59,374 nt of DNA from Magnetococcales bacterium (GTDB taxonomy: Bacteria; Pseudomonadota; Magnetococcia; Magnetococcales; JADFZT01): contig JADFZT010000023.1 of NCBI GenBank assembly GCA_015232395.1, forward strand, positions 1 through 59,374. Direction: 5' to 3'. The notes beneath the pieces are model-generated. The model searched no databases and had not been told where the DNA came from. It saw nothing but the letters and a program-made list of their open reading frames with translations. How positions within the stretch are numbered: position 1 is the stretch's first letter; each line of letters starts with the position of its first letter. This document shows, piece by piece, positions 24,092 through 36,282 of this stretch. A program made the translations under genes and the position numbers.

Positions 24092-25291
24092 ATGAAGCGA
24101 CGGGAATTCATCAAATCCACCGCAGCCCTTGCCACAGCCGCCGCCGTGATTAGCCCCACCCCAGGCCAGGCTGCCCCCAGTCGTCCCAAGGTCAAGCAAT
24201 ATCGCACTCTGGGCAAAACCAATATCGCCATGAGTGATATTTCTTTTGGTGCCGGAAAATTGCCCTCCTCCTCCATGATTCTTCGGGCCATGGATCGGGG
24301 GATCAACTATTTTGACACCTCCCCGGATTATGGTGAGAGCGAGGATCTGATCGGCAAGGCTCTGAAACGCCGCAAGGATCGTGAAAAATATTATATCGCT
24401 TCCAAATTTTGCAGCCCCATCGCCTACCCTGGCCATGTGCGTTTTGGCTCCTCCAAAAAAGAGTATATCGAGGCGGTGGATGGCAGCCTGAAGCGTTTGG
24501 GGTGCGACTATCTGGACGTGGTTTTTGTCCACGCCATCGGCTCCAAAAAGGACTATGCGTTGGATAAGCGGCGTATGCTCGATCCCCGTATGTTCGAGGC
24601 TTTCGCTGAGCTGAAGGAGAAGGGCAAGGCCAACTATCTGGCGGTCTCCTCCCACGGCCCCCACCATATGGAAAAGTTGATGTTGGCAGCGGTGGAGTCG
24701 GGGAAGTTTGACATCATCATGCCCGCTTTCAACTTTATGAACTTTCCCAGAGTGCCGGAGCTGATTCAAAAGGCCAAAGCCAACGGGGTGGGGGTGGTCG
24801 CCATGAAAACCCTGGCTGGGGCCAAGGATAGCGGGGTGGAGCTGGATCCAGGTGTGTTTGAACAGGCTGCCTTTAAATGGGTATTACGCCACAAGGAGGT
24901 GGATGGCCTGGTGATCACCATCAAGAGCGTCGGGGATCTGGATACCTTTTTGCCCGCCTCCGGCGAAGAATACAGCGCCCGGGATCAACGGGCTCTGGAC
25001 CACTATGCCGCCCGCCACGGCCAGGACTATTGCCGTACGGGTTGTGGGGATTGCGAGCCTGACTGTGCTGAGGGGGTGCAGATTGCCACCATCCTGCGGC
25101 AGCAGATGTATTTCGAAGATTATGGGGACGAAAAACGGGCGATGGAAAATTATGCCACCCTGGATCGGGATGCCTCTGCTTGTGGGGATTGTGGCGATGC
25201 GGTGTGTGTGTCCGCCTGCCCCCACGGCCTGGATGTGGTGGCCAAGCTGCAGTCAGCCCACCGGAGCCTCACCTTCAACCCCGTCGCTTGA
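24092..25291 (+). CDS. Tat-exported aldo/keto reductase fused to a C-terminal Fe-S domain
   Basis: This 399-residue protein begins with a twin-arginine signal (KRREFIKST, then an Ala-rich core and GQAA). The aldo/keto reductase barrel has the tetrad residues Asp and Tyr in FDTSPDYGES, Lys in ASKF and His in VFVHAIGS. The C-terminal 90 residues hold two cysteine groups, YCRTGCGDCEPDC (about 312-325) and ACGDCGDAVCVSACPHG (about 363-378), able to bind iron-sulfur clusters. AAGGAGG precedes the ATG at 24092. It heads a cluster of a DUF6599 protein, a DUF362 protein and a polyferredoxin. The substrate is unknown. Tat export suggests folding with cofactor before transport. Confidence 0.9.
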   Translation: MKRREFIKSTAALATAAAVISPTPGQAAPSRPKVKQYRTLGKTNIAMSDISFGAGKLPSSSMILRAMDRGINYFDTSPDYGESEDLIGKALKRRKDREKYYIASKFCSPIAYPGHVRFGSSKKEYIEAVDGSLKRLGCDYLDVVFVHAIGSKKDYALDKRRMLDPRMFEAFAELKEKGKANYLAVSSHGPHHMEKLMLAAVESGKFDIIMPAFNFMNFPRVPELIQKAKANGVGVVAMKTLAGAKDSGVELDPGVFEQAAFKWVLRHKEVDGLVITIKSVGDLDTFLPASGEEYSARDQRALDHYAARHGQDYCRTGCGDCEPDCAEGVQIATILRQQMYFEDYGDEKRAMENYATLDRDASACGDCGDAVCVSACPHGLDVVAKLQSAHRSLTFNPVA

Positions 25292-25303
25292 GGTTGATCT
25301 GAC

Positions 25304-26251
25304 GTGGCTGCCCGGGTTCCGGTTCCTGCCCCCCCTGCGTCGGTTCAGTGGCTGTTGCTTTTGCTGCTGCCGGTGATGGCGCTTGGGGTTTGGCTGGATG
25401 GCGCTGCCTATGATCCGGATCGCGCCCGCTTCAAGCCGGGGGGGAAGAGGATCCCCATGGCGGCCTTTCTGCCGGAGCGGTTGGGAAACCTTTTTCGTTT
25501 GAACCCGGTCAAAGGCTACGACAAGGCAAACCTCTTCGAATATATCAACGGCCACGCGGAATTTTTTATCGATGCCGGGTTTGTCAATCTGGCTGTGGGG
25601 GAGTATGGCGGGGAAAAAGGGGCTGCCTCTCCCGCTGTGGTGGTGGATATCTATGACCTGCAAAAGCCTCTCCACGCCTTCGGGGTGTTGATGGATGAAG
25701 CCGCCCGCCACGGGGAGCCGGTAGAGGTGGGGGAGATGGGTTTTGCCAGTGAAGCCGGGTTGGCATTCATCTCAGGCCCTTATTATATCAAGCTGGCTGC
25801 TTTTGATAGCGATACGCCGCTGATGCCATTGGCCCGGGGAGTTCATCAGGTCATCGGTGGCGCTGGGGGAGAGCAGGCCCAGGCGTTTGCTTTTCCGGAT
25901 CTGGGGGAGACCACCCGCACCCGTTTTATCAAAGAGAGCTATCGGGGGTTGGACTTTTTTTCCAACGTGGTGGAGCGTTCTTTTGATCTGGATGGTCGGG
26001 AGCTGACTGCTTTTTTGTTGACGGGCAGCCCGGAAGAAAAACGCCAAACGACGACCGCGCTGAAAGATTTTCTGGCTGGAGAGGAGATTCCCAATCCTGC
26101 CATCCGTGAAGCCGGGGTGGAGTGGGTCACGGTGATGGATCCTTATGAGGATGAGTGGTTTTTTGTCTGGTCTGAGGATCGCTTTTTAGGGGTTTTCGCC
26201 CCCCTGACCGATGAGTTGAAAACACGCATCCAAGCCTACCTGGCCTTGTGA
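25304..26251 (+). CDS. DUF6599-family membrane-anchored protein
   Basis: The 315-residue protein starts at a GTG 12 bases after the reductase gene. It has an N-terminal hydrophobic anchor (WLLLLLLPVMALGVWL, about residues 16-31), then a mostly beta soluble domain facing the periplasm. The segment KANLFEYINGHAEFFIDAGF (about residues 70-90) is the signature of DUF6599 proteins (N-L-Y/F-E-Y-I-N-G). The biochemical role is unknown. Its place between two Tat-exported redox proteins suggests work in the same periplasmic process. Confidence 0.8.
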   Translation: MAARVPVPAPPASVQWLLLLLLPVMALGVWLDGAAYDPDRARFKPGGKRIPMAAFLPERLGNLFRLNPVKGYDKANLFEYINGHAEFFIDAGFVNLAVGEYGGEKGAASPAVVVDIYDLQKPLHAFGVLMDEAARHGEPVEVGEMGFASEAGLAFISGPYYIKLAAFDSDTPLMPLARGVHQVIGGAGGEQAQAFAFPDLGETTRTRFIKESYRGLDFFSNVVERSFDLDGRELTAFLLTGSPEEKRQTTTALKDFLAGEEIPNPAIREAGVEWVTVMDPYEDEWFFVWSEDRFLGVFAPLTDELKTRIQAYLAL

Positions 26252-26263
26252 GAGGCAACACCC

Positions 26264-27274
26264 ATGGCCAAAAAAGAGGGGTCTGATCGCAACCGGGTAG
26301 ACCCCCCCTTGAATCGACGGCAGTTTATCAAACGCCTGGCAGGCACCTCGGGCTTGGCTTTGGGGCTGGGTGTGGGGGGGGCTTTGGTCTACAGCGACAA
26401 GCCCATCCGCCGGGCTCCGGAAATCATTCACACCCTCAACGATTTTCGCGTTCCCCCTTCTGACCATCATCCGATGATGGCGGTGGTGCGGGGGAGTGAT
26501 GCCGAAACCATGGTGCGGGAGGCGGTGGCCAAGCTGGGGGGCATTTCCCGGTTTATCTCCCGGGGGGAGCGGGTGTTGCTGAAGCCCAATGTGGGGTGGG
26601 ATCGTTTGCCGGAGCAGGCGGCCAACACCGGGCCTGAGGTAGTCGGGGCGGTGGCGAAGCTTTGCCGGGAGGCGGGGGCGGGGGAGGTGTGGGTGACGGA
26701 TGTTTCCCTGAACGACCCTTATCGCTCTTTTGCCCGCTCCGGGATTGAACAGAGCGCCATCGCAGCAGGCGCCCAGGTGCGGATTCCCGGACAGGCGGAT
26801 TTTTGGTCCACGGATCTGGGGGGAGAGTTGTTGGGCGTGTGGCCGGTGTCGCGTTTTTTCCATGAGGTAGACCGGGTGATCAACCTGCCTATTATTAAAA
26901 ACCACTCCCTCTGCGGCTGCACCCTGGCCATGAAAAACTGGTATGGGGTGTTGGGGGGGCGCCGGAATCAACTGCATCAAAAAATCCACACTTCCATCGT
27001 CGATCTGGCCAGAGCGGTGCGCCCGACGTTGACCATTATGGATGGCATACGGGTATTGAAGGAGAATGGTCCGACGGGGGGGAGCTTGAGTGATGTGGTG
27101 ATGGGGCACACGGTGGTGGCTGGTTTGGATGAGGTGGCGATGGATAGCTTTGCCCTGGGATTTTTGGAGCTGACACCAGAAGAGATCCCTTTCCTCACCA
27201 TGGCTGAAAAAGCCGGTTTGGGACAAGTGGATTGGCAAGGATTGAACTGGACAGAATCAAAGATAAACATCTGA
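26264..27274 (+). CDS. Tat-exported DUF362 protein
   Basis: The 336-residue protein has a twin-arginine signal (NRRQFIKRLAGTSGLALGLG, about residues 17-36) and a DUF362 domain. The family blocks are GERVLLKPNVGWDRLP, ANTGPEVVGAVAKLCREAG and VINLPIIKNHSLCGCTLAMK (about residue 210). DUF362 proteins are often paired with ferredoxins; here the next gene is a polyferredoxin. It starts 12 bases after the DUF6599 gene. The exported location is unusual for this family and argues for a periplasmic redox or maturation step. Confidence 0.87.
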   Translation: MAKKEGSDRNRVDPPLNRRQFIKRLAGTSGLALGLGVGGALVYSDKPIRRAPEIIHTLNDFRVPPSDHHPMMAVVRGSDAETMVREAVAKLGGISRFISRGERVLLKPNVGWDRLPEQAANTGPEVVGAVAKLCREAGAGEVWVTDVSLNDPYRSFARSGIEQSAIAAGAQVRIPGQADFWSTDLGGELLGVWPVSRFFHEVDRVINLPIIKNHSLCGCTLAMKNWYGVLGGRRNQLHQKIHTSIVDLARAVRPTLTIMDGIRVLKENGPTGGSLSDVVMGHTVVAGLDEVAMDSFALGFLELTPEEIPFLTMAEKAGLGQVDWQGLNWTESKINI

Positions 27275-27285
27275 TCTGATACGAT

Positions 27286-27346
27286 TAAAAAAAAGAGGAG
27301 GGGGTTTGGGGGGATTCCTCCCCCCCAAGGTTTGTCCTTTGATCTT
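27286..27346. repeat. G-rich hairpin repeat, copy 1
   Basis: After a run of eight A residues lies a G-rich segment that can fold as TTGGGGGGA with TCCCCCCCAA (27306-27328). It is followed by a tail resembling that of the element at 37998-38055. Both share the order A-run, G-rich stretch, C-rich stretch, then a GATCTT-like tail, and both follow the 3' end of a gene. It may be a terminator or a dispersed palindromic element. Confidence 0.55.
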
Positions 27347-27359
27347 ATGGTGAGCCTAA

Positions 27360-28871
27360 ATGCCCGGACTGCGCAACATACGCCGAATCTACGCATTTTT
27401 CTTCCTGGGGCTCTTCCTCTTCCTGCTCCTGATAGCTGATTTTCGCCACCTGAAAGGCTACGAAGCCGCCCTTTTCCTGGAGCTGGATCCCCTCACCGCC
27501 ATCGCTGCTTTTCTCACCTCGGGCACTCTCTACAAGGGGTTGGCCCTCTCCCTGATTATTCTGATTCCCACTCTTTTTTTCGGGCGTTTTTTCTGTTCGT
27601 GGATCTGCCCTTTGGGGATTCTCAACCAGTGGCTGAGCCATTTTTTCAATAAACGCCGAGCTGTTGATGAATACAAGATCAACCGCTATCGCCCGATCCA
27701 GCGGCTGAAATATTATCTTTTGGCGGCTCTGTTGATATTGGCCCTGTTTGGCTCCCTGCAAGTGGGGCTGTTGGATCCCATTCCCCTGCTTTATCGCTCC
27801 TTCACCACCGCCGCTCTGCCTGCCATGGATGGGGCCGGGTTGGGGATTTATCTCAACCATCCGGTTTTTCATGGGGGGGTGCTGATTGCGGTTTTGTTTT
27901 TGGGGATATTGATCGCCAATCGTTTGCTGACCCGTTTTTGGTGTCGGGTGTTGTGTCCTTTGGGGGCGCTGCTGGGGGCCTGTTCGGGGCGGGCGCCGTT
28001 GCGCATTCGGCGGGATGTGGATAAGTGCACCGATTGCCAAAAGTGCCTGCAATTTTGCCAGGGGGGGTGCGATCCCGATGGGGAGCTTCGGGTGAGTGAG
28101 TGCCATGTCTGCATGAACTGCCTGGAGCAGTGTCCGGAAGGGGCGTTGCATTATGGCCTGCCCACCCCCCGGAGTTCCATCCACACCCCGCTGGATTTTA
28201 ACCGTCGGCGTTTGGTGGAGAGCGGTGTGGCGGCGGGGGTGCTGTTTCCCATGTTGCGTTCTTCAGCTTCAGCCCACACCACCCCCGCTCCAGAGGTGAT
28301 CCGCCCCCCGGGTTCCTTGGAAGAGGGGGATTTTTTGGCGCGTTGTATCAAATGTTCGGCCTGTATGCGGGTCTGCCCCACCAACGTGCTACAACCGGCA
28401 TTGTTGGAGAGCGGTTTTGAGGGGTTGTGGACGCCGATTTTGCAAAACCGCATCGGCTATTGCGAGCACCACTGTGTTTTGTGTTCTGAAGTGTGCCCCA
28501 CAGCGGCGATTCGCCCCCTGACGGTGCAGGAGAAGGTTGGGGAGGGGGATTTTAAGACGCCGATCAAGCTCGGGACCGCTTTTTTTGATCGGGGCAGGTG
28601 CTTGCCTTGGGCGATGCAGGTGCCGTGTATTGTCTGTGAGGAGGTGTGTCCGACCTCACCAAAAGCGATCTGGTACGAAAAGGTGACTGTGCCCGACCGC
28701 AACGGCAAGCTGATCCAGCTCAAGCAGCCCTACGTGGAGCCTGCCCGCTGTATTGGTTGCGGCATCTGCGAAAACAAATGCCCGGTCACCGATAAAGCCG
28801 CGATCCGGGTGACCAGCGTAGGGGAGACCCGCTCCAAGAGGAATCGGATGATTTTGGACCAGCGGGTATAG
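27360..28871 (+). CDS. Membrane polyferredoxin (NapH/MauN-like part fused to an exported ferredoxin part)
   Basis: The 503-residue protein joins two units. Residues 1-200 carry about four membrane helices and the paired CSWICPLG and CRVLCPLG motifs of NapH/MauN/CcoG-like quinol-linked proteins. Two 4Fe-4S clusters follow (CTDCQKCLQFC, CHVCMNCLEQC). At residues about 280-305 the motif NRRRLVESGVAAGVL resembles an internal twin-arginine segment. After it come CIKCSACMRVCP, CVLCSEVCP, CIVCEEVCP and CIGCGICENKCP. The whole looks like a NapH-NapG style fusion moving electrons from quinol to the periplasmic proteins encoded just upstream. It ends 5 bases before a convergent gene. Confidence 0.88.
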   Translation: MPGLRNIRRIYAFFFLGLFLFLLLIADFRHLKGYEAALFLELDPLTAIAAFLTSGTLYKGLALSLIILIPTLFFGRFFCSWICPLGILNQWLSHFFNKRRAVDEYKINRYRPIQRLKYYLLAALLILALFGSLQVGLLDPIPLLYRSFTTAALPAMDGAGLGIYLNHPVFHGGVLIAVLFLGILIANRLLTRFWCRVLCPLGALLGACSGRAPLRIRRDVDKCTDCQKCLQFCQGGCDPDGELRVSECHVCMNCLEQCPEGALHYGLPTPRSSIHTPLDFNRRRLVESGVAAGVLFPMLRSSASAHTTPAPEVIRPPGSLEEGDFLARCIKCSACMRVCPTNVLQPALLESGFEGLWTPILQNRIGYCEHHCVLCSEVCPTAAIRPLTVQEKVGEGDFKTPIKLGTAFFDRGRCLPWAMQVPCIVCEEVCPTSPKAIWYEKVTVPDRNGKLIQLKQPYVEPARCIGCGICENKCPVTDKAAIRVTSVGETRSKRNRMILDQRV

Positions 28872-30088: not shown

Positions 30089-30130
30089 AAATATCATATA
30101 ATCAAGGTTTGTGATTTTGCGAAATATCAT
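30089..30130. promoter_or_regulatory. Paired AAATATCAT direct repeats upstream of the TIR-CHAT gene
   Basis: AAATATCAT occurs at 30089-30097 and again at 30122-30130, 33 bases (about three helical turns) apart, in an AT-rich stretch just before the 30150 start codon. Spaced repeats of this kind are often operators. The XRE regulator encoded at the end of the same operon is the obvious candidate to bind here. This is inference. Confidence 0.35.
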
Positions 30131-30149
30131 TCCCTCGGAAAAGGCCGCC

Positions 30150-33100
30150 ATGTCCACCAATTCAGCCCCCAGCCAAAAACCGGTTTTTATCTCCCACTCC
30201 AGTGTGGATGACGCGTTTGTCCAATCCTTGCGCCAACACCTTCAGGATCATGGGGTGCCGGTGTGGGAGGATGCTTCCTGTTTGAGTGGTGGCGTCAATC
30301 TACCGGAAGTGATCTTTAAAGCCATCCGTGATTCCCAGCATTTTATTGTGGTGGTGAGTGAGGATGCGATGGACTCCGAATGGGTGGTGGATGAGACCGA
30401 GCTGGCCATGACGCTGTTGGCGGAGCGCACCGATGGCTTCAAGGTGGTGCCCATTTTGTTGGGGAAGAAAACCCACACAGCGGCCCGGGCTTTGACAGGG
30501 AAAAAATTGGCCGCCATCCGGGGGCAGGAGGGGGTGGATGTGGCGATGCCGGAAATCCTCGCCGCTTTGGGGAAACAGCTGCCAGAGGGATATTTTAAAC
30601 CCGAGGCCGTGGATGCCCCGGATATCGAAGAGTTGACCCTGGAGCTGGAAAATCCCCGTTTGGAAAAGCTGGAGGGGAAGGAGCGGGGGGTGGCAGAGGC
30701 CCGGTTGATCTATCAGCCCAGTGGCGGTGCTCGCGCCATTCGCAGTGCCAAATTTAAATTTACTGCTCCCATTGGCCCCATCGAAGCGGACAAGCTGCGT
30801 TGGTATTTGGAAGACTATTATCTTTGGCCGACGGGGCCGTTTAAAACGCGGGCTGAGGAGGTGGAGAGGGCGTTGCCGGAGTGGGGGGCGGCGCTTTATT
30901 GGGGGGCAGTGGGGGGGGATGTCAATCTGGCTCCTTTAGCCAGCTGGGAGCGGGTGCCGGTGGGCAAGGCGCGGCGTTTTTCGGTCTATGTGGATGACCG
31001 GGCTGTGACGGGGGCGGATGAAAAAACGACTGCCGAGGTGAAACAAGCCGCCACTACCCTGATGGGGCTGCCCTGGGAGCTGGCTTATGATCAACGGGGC
31101 TATCTTTTCCAGGGAGCGAAACCCGCCCGGGTGCGTAGATTGCTCCCCAACGAATTGGAGGCCGAAGCTCTCCTCACCGAGCCCCCGATTCGGATTTTGC
31201 TGGCCAGCCCCCGGCCTGATGATGACAAAGCCGGATACATCGACCACCGCATCAGCGCCCGGCCCCTGGTGGAGGCGTTGGCGGGGTTGGGGGGGATGGT
31301 GGAGGTGACGGTGTTGGAGCCCCCCACCTTTCCCGAGTTGAAAAAGGAACTGAAGCGGGCGCGGCAGGCGAAAAAGCCCTATCACGTGGTCCATTTCGAT
31401 GGGCATGGGGTGTATGACCCGGTGGTGGGGCTGGGGGGGCTCTGCTTTGAGGATCCGGAAGATGCCCACAAGCTGCAAAAACGGGGCACTGCCATCATCA
31501 ATGCCCAGGAGCTGGGGGCGGAGATTCAGGATCATCGGATTGCGCTGTTTTTCCTGGAAGCGTGCCAAACCGCCCAAGCAGAGCTGGATCCCATCGCTTC
31601 GGTGGCTGGGAGGTTGCTGGAGTGTGGGGTGGCATCGGTGGTGGCCATGAGTCACAGCGTGTTGGTGGAGACGGCGCGCCGGTTTGTGGAGGCGTTTTAT
31701 CAAGAGTTGGCCGGGGGGCATCGGATTGGGGAGGCGATGCTGGCGGGGCAGATCCATATTTATGACAATCCCTTCAAGTTTGAGGTTCCGGGGGCGGGGG
31801 ATCTACATCTGCAGGATTGGTTTGTGCCGGTGCTCTACCAGGAGGCCCACGATCCCCAGCTGGTCACAACCATCCCCGCTGAAAAAGCTCAAAATCTGAT
31901 CAAAAAACGCCAAAAGAATGTCCTGGGCAAGCTACCGGAACCACCCCCTCACCATTTTGTGGGTCGCAGTCGGGAGTTGCTGGCTCTGGAGCGGCTGTTG
32001 CAGCATCACGGCTATGGGGTGCTGGTGGGGCAGGGGGGGGAGGGGAAGACCACCTTGGGGGTGGAGCTGGCTCGCTGGCTGGTGATGACCAATCGCTTTG
32101 AGCGGGCCGCTTTTGTCAGCCTGGAGGAGTATCGGGATCACCGCACCATTCTGGATAGCTTGGGGCAACAGCTGCTACCCGGTTACACCATCGCCAAATA
32201 TGGCCACGAGTTGGATAAAGCCTGGCTGCCCATCCAGCAGACACTTTCAGAGCGGGCGACCCTGATCGTGTTCGACAACCTGGAGTCCGCCCTCCCACCC
32301 CCCGATGGTAGCGGTTATTCTGACTTTGAACCCGCTATCTGGCAGGGGATTTTGGCGTTGTTCAAGCAGGTGGGGGCGGTGGCACGCGCCAAGATGATCT
32401 TCACCACCCGGGAGCCCATGCCGGAGCCTTTTGATATCCATCAAGTGCGGATTGGCAAGCTGGATAAAAAGGCGGCGATAGAGCTGGTGAGCGGGGTGCT
32501 GAAACAGAACCACTTGCCCCCCAAAGCGGATGATCCAGGCCTCAACGAAGCCGAGATCGAAGCCCTGGTGGAATCAGTCAACCGCCACGCCCGCTCCCTC
32601 ACCTTGCTCGCCCCCGAGATCGCCAAAACCGGCGTCACAGGCACCACCGAAAACCTCACCAGCATCATGCAGGCGCTACAAAAAAAACACCCCAATGAAC
32701 GGGAACGCTCCCTCTACGCCTCGGTGGAGCTTTCCCTCAGAAGACTCAAACCCGACACCCGGGAAAAGATCAAGGTGCTGGGGGTGTTTCATGGGGGGGC
32801 GAATTTAAACATCGTTGATGACATGCTGAAACTGGATCCGTCAGAAATGATGGCAGTGGCTCAGGAGTTGGCAGAAGCTGGTTTGGCTGGGGAGTTTTAC
32901 AACGGCCACCTAAGACTCCACCCCGCCCTCTGCCCCTACCTCCTGGGGGAACTGGGGGAGACCGAGGCGGAAGGTTTCCGGGAGCAATGGTTGCAGGGGA
33001 TGGTGCAGCTGGTGGGGTTTTTGAGTCAGCAACAGCACCAGGACACCCAAATGGCCTACACCCTCACCCGCCTGGAGCTACCCAACCTCCTCGCCGCCCT

Positions 33101-34523
33101 GGAGCGGGTGCGGGAGCAGCCACCGGAGCAGGTGGTGGATTATGCCAAGAGGGTGGAACAGTTGCTGTCCAGACAGGGGCTGCCCTCAGCTCTCAAACGA
33201 GCCGTGGAAGCCCGGGAAGAGGCGGCGGCAAAAATTCCCGATTGGGGCCACGCCCGGTTTGAGTCCCAACAGCTTGGCATCGAGCGATTGCTGGAAGCAG
33301 GGAATCTGCAAGAGGCCTTTTCCCAAGCTCAGGATTTGCTCGCCCAGAGCCAAGCCGCTGGAGAAGCCGCCTATCCAGGGGCTGATTATGATCTGGCTAT
33401 GGCTCACAATCTATTAGGCCAGGTTTTGTATGCAGGTGGGAATGCGCAGTTGGCCCTGAATTGTTTTGTTGAGGCTCATCAACGTTTTCAGACTTTGGAA
33501 GAAGTGGGGGATGATGCAGCTAAGAGAATGGTTGCCGTAATAATCACCAGAAAAGGGGATTGTTACAGGGGGCTTGGCCAATTGGATGAGGCGGCCAAGG
33601 CCTATCAGGAGGGGATTGAGTTGGATGAGAGGCAGGGGGATGACCGGGGTGTGGCTGTTGGGAAAGGGCAGCTGGGTACGGTGTGGCTGGAGCAAAATAA
33701 ATATGGCGAGGCTTTGAAAGCGCACGAAGAGGCTCGGGAGAGTTTTGAAAATATGGATGAGCCCCTGAGTGTGGCCACGGCTTGGCATCAGATCGGCATG
33801 GTTCATCAGCAGGCGGGCAACACGAAAGAGGCGGAAAAGGCCTATAAGGAATCCCTGAGCATCAGGACCAGGGAAAGTAATCGGGACGGGGAGGCGGACA
33901 GCTCAATCCAGTTGGGCAATTTGTACGACAGTATGGGCCGTCTTGAGGAAGCGGCGATCTTTTACAATAGGGCAGCAGATATCCGTGTGGAATTGAAGGA
34001 TTTGGCAGGTGAAGGTCGGGTTCGCAGCAACTTGGCTAATACCCTGATCCAGCTTAAACGCTACGACGATGCCAGGGTGGTGGCAGAGCGTGCGATTGAG
34101 TGCTTAACCCCTTATGGTCAAAATGCCCAGCCTTGGATTTTATGGAGTGTCCTCCACAATCTGGAACAGGCTGTGGGCAACCGGGAAGCGGCTCTCCAGG
34201 CGCGGCAGAAGGCCATGGAGCTCTTTCTCCAATATCGTCGGGATGGGGGGGAGAATCATGCAGGGGGAGGCAGGCTTTGTCTGATGGTGGAGCAGGGGAT
34301 CAAAGCTAAGGATACCGGTGAGGTGGCGGGGCTGTTGGGGCAGCTGGCGAGCGATACTGATTACCATCCCTACATTAGAGCCCTCGCTGCCTCTCTGCAA
34401 AAGATCGTGAACGGCTCCCGCGATCCCACTCTGGCCGACGACCCGGCTTTGGACTATGACGATGCCGTGGAACTGAAGCTCCTCCTGGAGCGGTTGAGGG
34501 AGCTGGAGGGGAATGATGCATGA
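30150..34523 (+). CDS. TIR-CHAT-STAND NTPase-TPR immune-type protein
   Basis: This 1457-residue protein has four parts. Residues 1-140 are a TIR domain (PVFISHSSVDDAFVQSL, SEWVVDETE with probable NADase Glu82). Residues about 345-570 are a CHAT caspase-like protease: FDGHGVYD with His419 and FLEACQTA with Cys472, then GVASVVAMSHSV. Residues about 600-890 are a STAND/NB-ARC ATPase, with HHFVGRSREL, Walker A GQGGEGKTT (Lys633) and Walker B LIVFDNLE (Asp709). Residues about 1080-1400 are TPR repeats (for example GQLDEAAKAYQEGIEL). STAND proteins use the repeat region to sense a trigger, oligomerise and switch on the N-terminal effector. Here two different effectors are present. The ATG at 30150 fits the domain start; an upstream in-frame start at 30111 is less likely. 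The stop overlaps the XRE start (ATGA). Confidence 0.92.
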   Translation: MSTNSAPSQKPVFISHSSVDDAFVQSLRQHLQDHGVPVWEDASCLSGGVNLPEVIFKAIRDSQHFIVVVSEDAMDSEWVVDETELAMTLLAERTDGFKVVPILLGKKTHTAARALTGKKLAAIRGQEGVDVAMPEILAALGKQLPEGYFKPEAVDAPDIEELTLELENPRLEKLEGKERGVAEARLIYQPSGGARAIRSAKFKFTAPIGPIEADKLRWYLEDYYLWPTGPFKTRAEEVERALPEWGAALYWGAVGGDVNLAPLASWERVPVGKARRFSVYVDDRAVTGADEKTTAEVKQAATTLMGLPWELAYDQRGYLFQGAKPARVRRLLPNELEAEALLTEPPIRILLASPRPDDDKAGYIDHRISARPLVEALAGLGGMVEVTVLEPPTFPELKKELKRARQAKKPYHVVHFDGHGVYDPVVGLGGLCFEDPEDAHKLQKRGTAIINAQELGAEIQDHRIALFFLEACQTAQAELDPIASVAGRLLECGVASVVAMSHSVLVETARRFVEAFYQELAGGHRIGEAMLAGQIHIYDNPFKFEVPGAGDLHLQDWFVPVLYQEAHDPQLVTTIPAEKAQNLIKKRQKNVLGKLPEPPPHHFVGRSRELLALERLLQHHGYGVLVGQGGEGKTTLGVELARWLVMTNRFERAAFVSLEEYRDHRTILDSLGQQLLPGYTIAKYGHELDKAWLPIQQTLSERATLIVFDNLESALPPPDGSGYSDFEPAIWQGILALFKQVGAVARAKMIFTTREPMPEPFDIHQVRIGKLDKKAAIELVSGVLKQNHLPPKADDPGLNEAEIEALVESVNRHARSLTLLAPEIAKTGVTGTTENLTSIMQALQKKHPNERERSLYASVELSLRRLKPDTREKIKVLGVFHGGANLNIVDDMLKLDPSEMMAVAQELAEAGLAGEFYNGHLRLHPALCPYLLGELGETEAEGFREQWLQGMVQLVGFLSQQQHQDTQMAYTLTRLELPNLLAALERVREQPPEQVVDYAKRVEQLLSRQGLPSALKRAVEAREEAAAKIPDWGHARFESQQLGIERLLEAGNLQEAFSQAQDLLAQSQAAGEAAYPGADYDLAMAHNLLGQVLYAGGNAQLALNCFVEAHQRFQTLEEVGDDAAKRMVAVIITRKGDCYRGLGQLDEAAKAYQEGIELDERQGDDRGVAVGKGQLGTVWLEQNKYGEALKAHEEARESFENMDEPLSVATAWHQIGMVHQQAGNTKEAEKAYKESLSIRTRESNRDGEADSSIQLGNLYDSMGRLEEAAIFYNRAADIRVELKDLAGEGRVRSNLANTLIQLKRYDDARVVAERAIECLTPYGQNAQPWILWSVLHNLEQAVGNREAALQARQKAMELFLQYRRDGGENHAGGGRLCLMVEQGIKAKDTGEVAGLLGQLASDTDYHPYIRALAASLQKIVNGSRDPTLADDPALDYDDAVELKLLLERLRELEGNDA

Positions 34524-34798
34524 CCATCCCATTTTCTGAAGTGCGCAAAGAGTGGCGCAAAAATCCCGGCTTCATGAAAGCCTATGACGATCTGGCCGAA
34601 GCGTTCGACCTGGCCAAAGAGTTGATCCAAGCCCGGGTAAACGCAGGCTTGAGCCAGCAGGAGCTGGCGGAGCGGATGGGGCGTTCTCAGCCCGTGGTCG
34701 CCAGACTCGAAAGCAGCCACAAAACCTCCCTCAAATCCCTGGAACGCTACGTCAAAGCCTTGGGAATGAAAGTGAAAATTCAACTCGCGCCGGAATGA
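34520..34798 (+). CDS. XRE-family HTH regulator (HigA-like)
   Basis: The 92-residue protein carries a lambda-repressor type helix-turn-helix: IQARVNAGLSQQELAERMGR, then SQPVVARLESS (about residues 34-65). The N-terminal segment EVRKEWRKNPGFMKAYDDL is typical of HigA/XRE antitoxins encoded after a RelE-like toxin. Here the gene upstream is instead the TIR-CHAT-STAND gene, and the two overlap by four bases (ATGA), so they are translated together. The likely role is autorepression of the operon, or holding the large protein inactive. Confidence 0.88.
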   Translation: MTIPFSEVRKEWRKNPGFMKAYDDLAEAFDLAKELIQARVNAGLSQQELAERMGRSQPVVARLESSHKTSLKSLERYVKALGMKVKIQLAPE

Positions 34799-34919
34799 TG
34801 GCGGGGTTGGAGTAAGGCGAAGATAGCTGGAGAGGGTTGGGTTTTTGGGTGTTGGGATGGGGGTGTTATGGTACTCTTTGATGAGAAATCTCCAACATCA
34901 ACCAAACGGGGGTTGAATC

Positions 34920-35171
34920 ATGCGGGTCGCTCGGGAATTTAATAAATTGGCAGTGGTGCATGGGCTGGAAACCGTTCGGGAAGAAGAATTGGAAGCCTTC
35001 CTGAAAACCGCCCCCAAGGATCCCAAGGCGTTGGAACTGCGGGAATGGCAGCTACAAGAGATCGATGCCGGTATCCGAGAAGCCGACACCGAACCCGGCA
35101 TCCCCCACGAAAAGGTTAAGGCGTGGGTGGAAAGCTGGGGAATGGAGAATGAACTTCCCATGCCGGAATGA
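34920..35171 (+). CDS. Antitoxin-like protein of a ParE/RelE pair
   Basis: The 83-residue acidic protein (for example ETVREEELEAFLKTAP and WQLQEIDAGIREADTEPG) precedes a ParE-like toxin gene and overlaps it by four bases (ATGA). The phrase EIDAGIREADTEPGIPHEKV is typical of antitoxins of the addiction-module class that hold a short C-terminal toxin-binding tail. It starts with ATG at 34920. The role is inferred from gene order and sequence type. Confidence 0.8.
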   Translation: MRVAREFNKLAVVHGLETVREEELEAFLKTAPKDPKALELREWQLQEIDAGIREADTEPGIPHEKVKAWVESWGMENELPMPE

Positions 35172-35452
35172 AGGTCCATTGGAATAAACGCGCCCTGGCC
35201 AATCTTGCCAATATTCGTTTTTATATTTTTCAAGAAAACCCTCGGGCCGCTTCCAAAGTAGCATCACGCATCCTGGAGGCAGCCAATAGACTGGCTGAAT
35301 TCCCTGAAAAAGGTCGTCTGGGGCCTAGACCTAACACCCGGGAACTGGTGATCCCAAATTTGCCATTTATCGTCTTATACCGGCTCGACAAAAACGCCAT
35401 CAAAATTTTGCGGGTTTTCCATACCGCCAGGAAATGGCCGATACGTTTATAA
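35168..35452 (+). CDS. parE: RelE/ParE-family toxin
   Basis: The 94-residue basic protein has the ParE/RelE pattern. It starts VHWNKRALANLANIRFYI, continues AANRLAEFPEKGRLGPRPNTREL and closes LPFIVLYRLDKNAIKILRVFHTARKWP. The arginine/histidine-rich C-terminus RVFHTARKWP is typical. Such toxins inhibit gyrase (ParE) or cleave ribosome-bound mRNA (RelE); the sequence suits ParE slightly better. It is overlapped by its antitoxin gene. Confidence 0.87.
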   Translation: MKVHWNKRALANLANIRFYIFQENPRAASKVASRILEAANRLAEFPEKGRLGPRPNTRELVIPNLPFIVLYRLDKNAIKILRVFHTARKWPIRL

Positions 35453-35602
35453 TGGCTTCGCGGCTGGATTGAGGATTGTTCGGGGTTGGTCAACGATCAT
35501 AAAATGGTGGGATTTGGTTCGGAGGGGGTGGGGAGAGGAAAAACGGTTCCCCGGCCTGCCGTTGGAGGGGGAGAACCCTCCAGTTTGGGGTTGGGTTGGG
35601 CG

Positions 35603-35731
35603 TTAGATGAGGAACATAAGAGCGATGCCGACGGCTCCGACCGCCAAGCTAAGCAGAACCCGCTCCATTTGGTGCCCGCCGATGTTGAAAAACGAAGGGC
35701 TGTTGATGTTTTCCACTGGGTCCATGAACAT
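35603..35731 (-). CDS. Small single-helix membrane protein, 42 aa
   Basis: The product starts MFMDPVENINSPSFFNIGGH and ends in one membrane helix (VLLSLAVGAVGIALMFLI). A strong ribosome site AAAGGAG sits 7 bases before the ATG at 35731, and an AT-rich upstream region (35735-35800) could hold a promoter. I know no family for it. Its size fits a type I toxin-like or stress membrane peptide, and it lies between two toxin-antitoxin pairs. That role is speculation. Confidence 0.6.
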   Translation of the reverse strand: MFMDPVENINSPSFFNIGGHQMERVLLSLAVGAVGIALMFLI

Positions 35732-35868
35732 GATGATTCTCCTTTTTTGGTTTTAGTTACCTGGTTAGATTCCCCCCCTGAATGATTAGTTCCGCAAATT
35801 CGCACATAAAGAATCCTTTTCAGGCCGATTTTTGCTCAGCGGTTGGTTTGACAAAAACCCATCAATTT

Positions 35869-36282
35869 TCAATGGATTTCAGCGGTAGGATCCAGCTGTT
35901 CCACACGAAAATATCGACCATATCCCCGATCCCGACTGATCAGCCCATAGCCCTGAACCGTGGCATGAGCGCCAATCAAAAAATCCGCCAGCATCCGCTT
36001 TTTCTGCCCACCCCGCTGCCGATATTGACGAAACACCTGACCTGCCAGAAAAGCCGCTGTGGGGGGAATCGGCTCATGGCGAAAAAGATCCGTCGGCAAC
36101 AATAGATCCAGCTCCTCTTTGGCTTCGAACCAGCCCGCAAGTTCTGCATAAATCACGGGATTAATGACCAACTCTCCCGACTCGGCTATCTCCCCCAGAA
36201 TTTCCCTGGCGCGTTCGCCAAAATGGGTATCCCCCTGGAAGTGATCAATCAGGACATTGGTGTCCACCAGCCAGCTTTTCAT
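35869..36282 (-). CDS. vapC: VapC-like PIN-domain ribonuclease toxin
   Basis: The 137-residue protein starts WLVDTNVLIDHFQGD, with the first PIN Asp in VDTNVLID. It has the conserved Glu in INPVIYAELAGWF and the third and fourth acidic positions in MLADFLIGAHATVQG and LISRDRGYGRYF. VapC toxins cut tRNA or rRNA. It follows the AbrB-type antitoxin gene by 5 bases on the same strand, forming a standard VapBC operon. Confidence 0.92.
   Translation of the reverse strand: MKSWLVDTNVLIDHFQGDTHFGERAREILGEIAESGELVINPVIYAELAGWFEAKEELDLLLPTDLFRHEPIPPTAAFLAGQVFRQYRQRGGQKKRMLADFLIGAHATVQGYGLISRDRGYGRYFRVEQLDPTAEIH

Follow-up and report, generated by a model that had tools for sequence, protein, structure and literature searches.

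The nickel-pincer nucleotide (NPN) is a hydride-carrying cofactor, which in lactate racemase (LarA) is attached covalently to a lysine (PMC11796402, PMC12611868). According to a study from 2024, about 15% of the analysed genomes possess larB, larC, and larE but no larA, such that a so far unidentified NPN-binding protein is expected, and in cyanobacteria even its fold is anticipated to differ from that of LarA (PMC11796402). Pfam groups the family DUF362 with the DUF2088 domain of LarA in one clan (PMC11770544), and the passing mentions of DUF362 found in the open-access literature include its use as an outgroup to LarA on account of this common clan. A DUF362 protein is encoded in the stretch of DNA analysed here, 59,374 bp from a Magnetococcales bacterium (GenBank assembly GCA_015232395.1, contig JADFZT010000023.1, positions 1 to 59,374, forward strand; in the following: the window). 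Its gene is the third in a cluster of four (24092-28871), preceded by genes for an aldo/keto reductase (AKR) and a DUF6599 protein and followed by that for a polyferredoxin. We consider it moderately likely that this cluster constitutes a redox module at the periplasmic face of the membrane, with the DUF362 protein as its key catalyst and an NPN enzyme, coupled to the polyferredoxin (a NapH-NapG fusion) and to the AKR, which carries iron-sulphur (Fe-S) cluster sites.

The DUF362 protein (26264-27274, + strand, 336 aa) belongs to a single detectable Pfam family (DUF362, E 3e-46; clan CL0471, shared with the LarA superfamily). For its AlphaFold2 model (predicted local distance difference test score, pLDDT, 86.6; predicted TM-score 0.82), all 19 of 19 PDB matches at E<=0.001 were LarA and its homologues, with TM-scores of about 0.4; a PDB search with the sequence alone gave no match. 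Equally, hhalign did not succeed against three LarA sequences, and a profile of ten LarA proteins was needed (three from PDB entries and seven from plasmid records; the LarA sequence is identical to PDB 5huq). The DUF362 and LarA profiles are colinear over 253 columns, with His214 (codon at 26903-26905, + strand) aligned to the catalytic His174 of LarA and Lys224 (26933-26935, + strand) to Lys184, which carries the NPN. The score of this alignment, 25.1, exceeds those of 60 column-shuffled controls (at most 20.9), of the reversed profile (18.1), and of three sister proteins (13.5-17.2). His214, Lys224, and a third residue, His238 (26975-26977, + strand), which the alignment places at a LarA histidine other than His200, are each conserved in at least 98% of 80 homologues and kept in the more distant aligned DUF362 proteins.

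Compared with the LarA superfamily of NPN racemases and epimerases (Lar_N and DUF2088 domains), DUF362 thus has in common the predicted fold, the Pfam clan, equivalents of His174 and Lys184, and the presence of larBCE in the genome, whereas it is shorter, possesses no Lar_N domain (PF09861 gave no match in the protein) and no counterpart of His108, and exhibits a signal for twin-arginine translocation (Tat) as well as partners that are Fe-S electron carriers. Concerning this signal, Arg18-Arg19 is invariant in 21 Magnetococcales sequences, as is Arg3-Arg4 in 21 AKR sequences of the order, in agreement with the original prediction of two Tat-exported proteins. In the model, residues 18-43 form a helix, predicted with low confidence, and no clear cleavage site is visible, so that DUF362 probably stays anchored in the membrane. 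A role of DUF362 as an Fe-S protein was ruled out, as none of its cysteines is invariant across the 80 sequences.

The link to NPN stems from genome context and co-occurrence. LarB (273 bits, NCBIfam equivalog cut-off 175) and LarE (284 bits, cut-off 150) recur in the flanks of the cluster, and LarC adjoins them. Downstream of the polyferredoxin (PFD), the arrangement is PFD>LarE> <LarB<LarC in one genus of Magnetococcales, PFD>LarC>LarB>LarE> in a second genus, and PFD>LarC>...LarE>LarB> in one gammaproteobacterium, the Lar proteins of which share only 31-35% identity with those used as queries from Magnetococcales. The genome of the window contains LarC and LarB above the NCBIfam cut-offs and a LarE homologue (found by tblastn) on contig C30:4400-9544. 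LarC was detected in 41 of 48 Magnetococcales genomes, Lar_N, i.e., canonical LarA, in none of the 48; and wherever DUF362 occurs in the order, it is present as a single copy, except in the genome of the window. As no Lar_N occurs in the LarC-positive Magnetococcales and no LarA-fold family other than DUF362 was detected, an NPN-dependent DUF362 enzyme would be the economical reading.

Among 27 high-quality Magnetococcales genomes, DUF6599, DUF362, the polyferredoxin, and LarC are each present in 25, and all four are absent from the other two (G022 and G041), as well as from a third genome that is 75% complete (G042). The chance that three cluster-negative genomes all fall among the seven LarC-negative ones of the 48 amounts to 35/17296 = 0.002; the evidence from this joint loss is weaker than the number indicates, because two of the three genomes belong to one genus and several genes can be missing together from an incomplete genome. 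Outside Magnetococcales, LarC was matched in 19 of 24 genomes with a cluster-type DUF362, in two of them only partially. Matches to DUF362 without any to Lar_N were also obtained in control searches of Haloferax volcanii, for which larBCE-like genes are described (PMC8305020), and of Synechococcus elongatus, which in addition has a LarC match.

The second DUF362 protein in the genome of the window (L185, G000:C12:284-1537) lacks a Tat signal, carries a double 4Fe-4S ferredoxin fused at its C-terminus, and keeps the three His/Lys/His positions. It was excluded as a general NPN client: since no other Magnetococcales genome has a second copy, it cannot explain larBCE across the order.

Several observations weigh against NPN dependence of DUF362. 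Taken alone, the profile-profile match to LarA is weak (probability 2%, P 0.024). In the profile alignment, LarA His108 has no histidine counterpart, so that one of the two catalytic histidines is matched, and the LarA segment with the nickel ligand His200 is shortened in DUF362, so that His238 is no more than a candidate nickel ligand. The lar genes of the window's genome are situated on a contig other than that of the cluster. Furthermore, the DUF362-polyferredoxin pair occurs without LarC in three of four tested Zixibacteria genomes, one of them a complete chromosome, and B. ihuae likewise has DUF362 and no LarC; in Zixibacteria, a different cofactor may be used or LarC may have diverged. 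Conversely, LarC is matched in C. glutamicum and M. jannaschii, which contain neither DUF362 nor Lar_N, such that other NPN clients may exist.

The four open reading frames (ORFs) all lie on the + strand with gaps of 12, 12, and 85 bp, exactly as first described. A search of gene neighbourhoods, which had been proposed together with that description, found the arrangement conserved in several phyla: 18 of 20 Magnetococcales neighbourhoods retain the order AKR, DUF6599, DUF362, polyferredoxin on one strand, which is complete in 13 of 22 loci of Nitrospirota and two of five of Nitrospinota, and present in Gammaproteobacteria as well. Because of this conservation across phyla, the arrangement is not due to chance. 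Within Magnetococcales, DUF6599 is found as a single copy in 43 of the 48 genomes, and in none of the other sampled genomes of the phylum. When 84,980 species genomes were scanned with the DUF362 alignment, relatives were obtained from Gammaproteobacteria, Nitrospirota (including Candidatus Magnetobacterium casense), Nitrospinota, Zixibacteria, Acidobacteria, Gemmatimonadota, and KSB1; on plasmids, there were three weak and uninformative matches. The polyferredoxin accompanies DUF362 in 70 of 80 loci, and the two stay paired where no AKR of the cluster type was found, e.g., in Zixibacteria. The pairwise distances of the four cluster proteins are correlated (r 0.77-0.88). A magnetosome function was set aside, given that lineages not known as magnetotactic carry cluster genes, too.

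With regard to the partners, the polyferredoxin (27360-28871, + strand, 503 aa) resembles the NapGH quinol dehydrogenase, with which it has in common the NapH membrane part with CX3CP motifs and a NapG-like 4Fe-4S domain, whereas in the cluster both parts are fused in one chain (NCBIfam NapH over residues 6-265, NapG over 281-486, besides several Pfam Fer4 families). The CX3CP motifs and the NapG cluster cysteines, i.e., 4Fe-4S sites in both parts, are conserved in 68 sequences. Of an internal RRR at residues 282-284, ahead of the NapG part, R282-R284 is invariant in Magnetococcales and R283 across phyla. A family of NapH-NapG fusions, the dual Sec/Tat polyferredoxins, with Nitrospirae members mentioned, was described by Tooke et al. 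2017 (PMC5449189); it shares with the cluster protein the fusion and the internal twin-arginine before the last hydrophobic segment. That study concerns membrane insertion, and in the open-access literature we found none that joins this polyferredoxin family with DUF362 or DUF6599. The cluster contains neither napAB nor napC, no gene for a periplasmic nitrate reductase occurs among the cluster genes and their annotated neighbours, and separate NapG-like and NapH-like genes exist on contig C30 of the window's genome. The polyferredoxin had been called quinol-linked; its build is indeed like that of a quinol dehydrogenase, and homology suggests the use of quinol itself.

The AKR (24092-25291, + strand, 399 aa) combines an Aldo_ket_red domain (Pfam E 4e-33) with C-terminal Fer4 matches. 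Its tetrad D75-Y80-K105-H147 is at least 98% conserved in 52 sequences, and the eight cysteines for two 4Fe-4S clusters are conserved, so that the assignment as an Fe-S AKR stands. The barrel tetrad and the C-terminal double cluster are common to known Fe-S AKRs, whereas Tat export and an apparently diverged C-terminal cofactor region set the cluster protein apart: the Pfam match stops at position 194 of 291, and alignments to solved NADPH-dependent AKRs fade in this region. The DUF6599 protein (25304-26251, + strand, 315 aa, GTG start; Pfam E 7e-24) is predicted with one hydrophobic helix at its N-terminus (residues 12-36; pLDDT of the model 84). Its model gave no PDB fold match at E<=0.001, and no paper on the family was found in the open-access literature.

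These components may work together as follows. DUF362 would fold in the cytoplasm, similar to lactate racemase, and NPN made by LarB, LarE, and LarC would be loaded onto it there, probably at Lys224. The loaded protein would then be exported in its folded state; Tat transports folded proteins and therefore suits attachment of a cofactor in the cytoplasm. Probably anchored in the membrane, DUF362 could take a hydride from, or give it to, a hydroxy- or keto-substrate by means of its periplasmic NPN. The NapH-NapG fusion would link the periplasmic 4Fe-4S clusters to the quinone pool, or to a cytoplasmic ferredoxin, by electron exchange, the Fe-S AKR would act on the same or the next substrate, and DUF6599 might serve as an accessory or substrate-binding subunit. 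For DUF362, net redox chemistry appears more probable than racemisation, since its constant partner is a polyferredoxin able to carry electrons through the membrane; the lack of a second catalytic histidine is in line with this.

Alternatively, DUF362 might use NPN solely to epimerise or racemise a hydroxy acid or sugar acid in the periplasm, with the AKR and the polyferredoxin performing net redox chemistry on the product. The LarA-type reactions in PMC11770544 and PMC7583248 are indeed all racemisations or epimerisations, and the catalytic tetrad of the AKR is itself intact; LarA, however, requires two catalytic histidines (PMC12611868), one of which is matched in DUF362, and the steady partner of DUF362 is the polyferredoxin rather than the AKR, which renders this explanation unlikely. 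Decidedly improbable is a path from quinol through the polyferredoxin to the Fe-S AKR as the only catalyst, in which DUF362 and DUF6599 would be accessory and the association with larBCE incidental. It would accord with the tetrad and the two cluster sites of the AKR and with the fact that characterised NapGH complexes are quinol dehydrogenases that donate electrons outward (PMC5449189), but DUF362 and the polyferredoxin remain paired where no such AKR was found, and both the adjacency and the co-occurrence with larBCE in an order without LarA speak against it. The original prediction of an electron path from quinol via Fe-S clusters to a periplasmic reductase is retained with regard to the conserved cluster, the export signals, and the periplasmic Fe-S AKR, and its electron direction is suggested by homology; it missed the NPN-linked DUF362 with its predicted LarA fold. 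As DUF362 has this predicted fold and is linked to NPN synthesis, the AKR is probably not the sole catalyst, nor is DUF362 an Fe-S relay.

Electrons might also flow in reverse, the AKR and DUF362 oxidising a substrate and the polyferredoxin delivering the electrons into the quinone pool. In principle, the chemistry of AKRs and of NPN can run either way, little free NAD(P)H is available in the periplasm, and the similarity of the AKR to NADPH-dependent enzymes fades just in the cofactor region; on the other hand, the polyferredoxin is homologous to the outward-donating NapGH, and no sequence feature fixes the direction. We regard this as somewhat unlikely, and it overlaps with the preferred explanation, the NPN-dependent redox module, which leaves the direction free. 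Finally, a cofactor other than NPN might be bound by the LarA-like fold of DUF362, with larBCE serving an undetected protein. The occurrence of DUF362 without LarC in Zixibacteria and B. ihuae and the candidate status of the His200 equivalent would fit, whereas the joint loss with larC in Magnetococcales and the adjacency to larBCE in three arrangements speak against it, and we deem it quite unlikely.

If DUF362 is an NPN enzyme, the gap of larBCE without larA (PMC11796402) gains a candidate answer. With a LarA-like predicted fold, a defined lysine for attachment, and the cofactor genes alongside in some genomes, DUF362 is a concrete and testable candidate NPN client, such that the stated question of the larBCE client becomes directly testable. 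The parts of the cluster belong to known families; the assembly of the four genes and the link to NPN are not described in the open-access literature searched. To our knowledge, no NPN enzyme that is exported, and none that is coupled to an Fe-S electron chain, has been described before; the DUF362 protein would be the first in both respects. More tentatively, DUF362 might constitute a family of NPN-dependent oxidoreductases, and thereby the missing NPN users of organisms with larBCE and without larA, such as Magnetococcales and perhaps cyanobacteria and Haloferax. In the cluster, it would be exported and wired to the respiratory chain, with NPN performing net redox chemistry outside the cytoplasm, in contrast to the hidden redox step of a racemisation.

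The surroundings of DUF362 vary among lineages. Radical SAM and MEMO neighbours adjoin the DUF362 cluster mainly in Zixibacteria: in L134, L135, L139, and L141 (mostly of this phylum), the DUF362-polyferredoxin pair is situated next to the gene of a radical SAM protein whose signal is Tat-like, and L134, L135, and L139 additionally contain a MEMO-like gene and a further DUF362. Export of a radical SAM protein would be unusual. In three Gemmatimonadota loci (L140, L145, L146), two or three AKR ORFs together with two DUF6599 genes are oriented divergently from the DUF362-polyferredoxin pair, and AKRs in tandem are found in one Nitrospirota locus (L117). In Nitrospirae bacterium MYbinv3 (L111, 6068-11336), a transposase-like ORF lies between DUF6599 and DUF362, and a DNA methyltransferase/Vsr-like block between DUF362 and the polyferredoxin. 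The DUF362 protein on contig111 of Candidatus Magnetominusculus xianensis (L131) is 66% identical to that of the window, far above other Nitrospirota, and therefore this contig may be contamination from Magnetococcales.

Within the window, the 85 bp gap upstream of the polyferredoxin contains a hairpin with a stem of 9 pairs (27305-27329, + strand) without a strong T run, and a promoter scan scored no better than shuffles. Downstream of the cluster, an ORF of 1470 aa (30111-34523, + strand) resembles, as judged by eye from its translation, a TIR-CHAT-NB-ARC-TPR protein of the defence or cell-death type, and is followed by small genes (34520-36282) that appear, judged in the same way, toxin-antitoxin-like.

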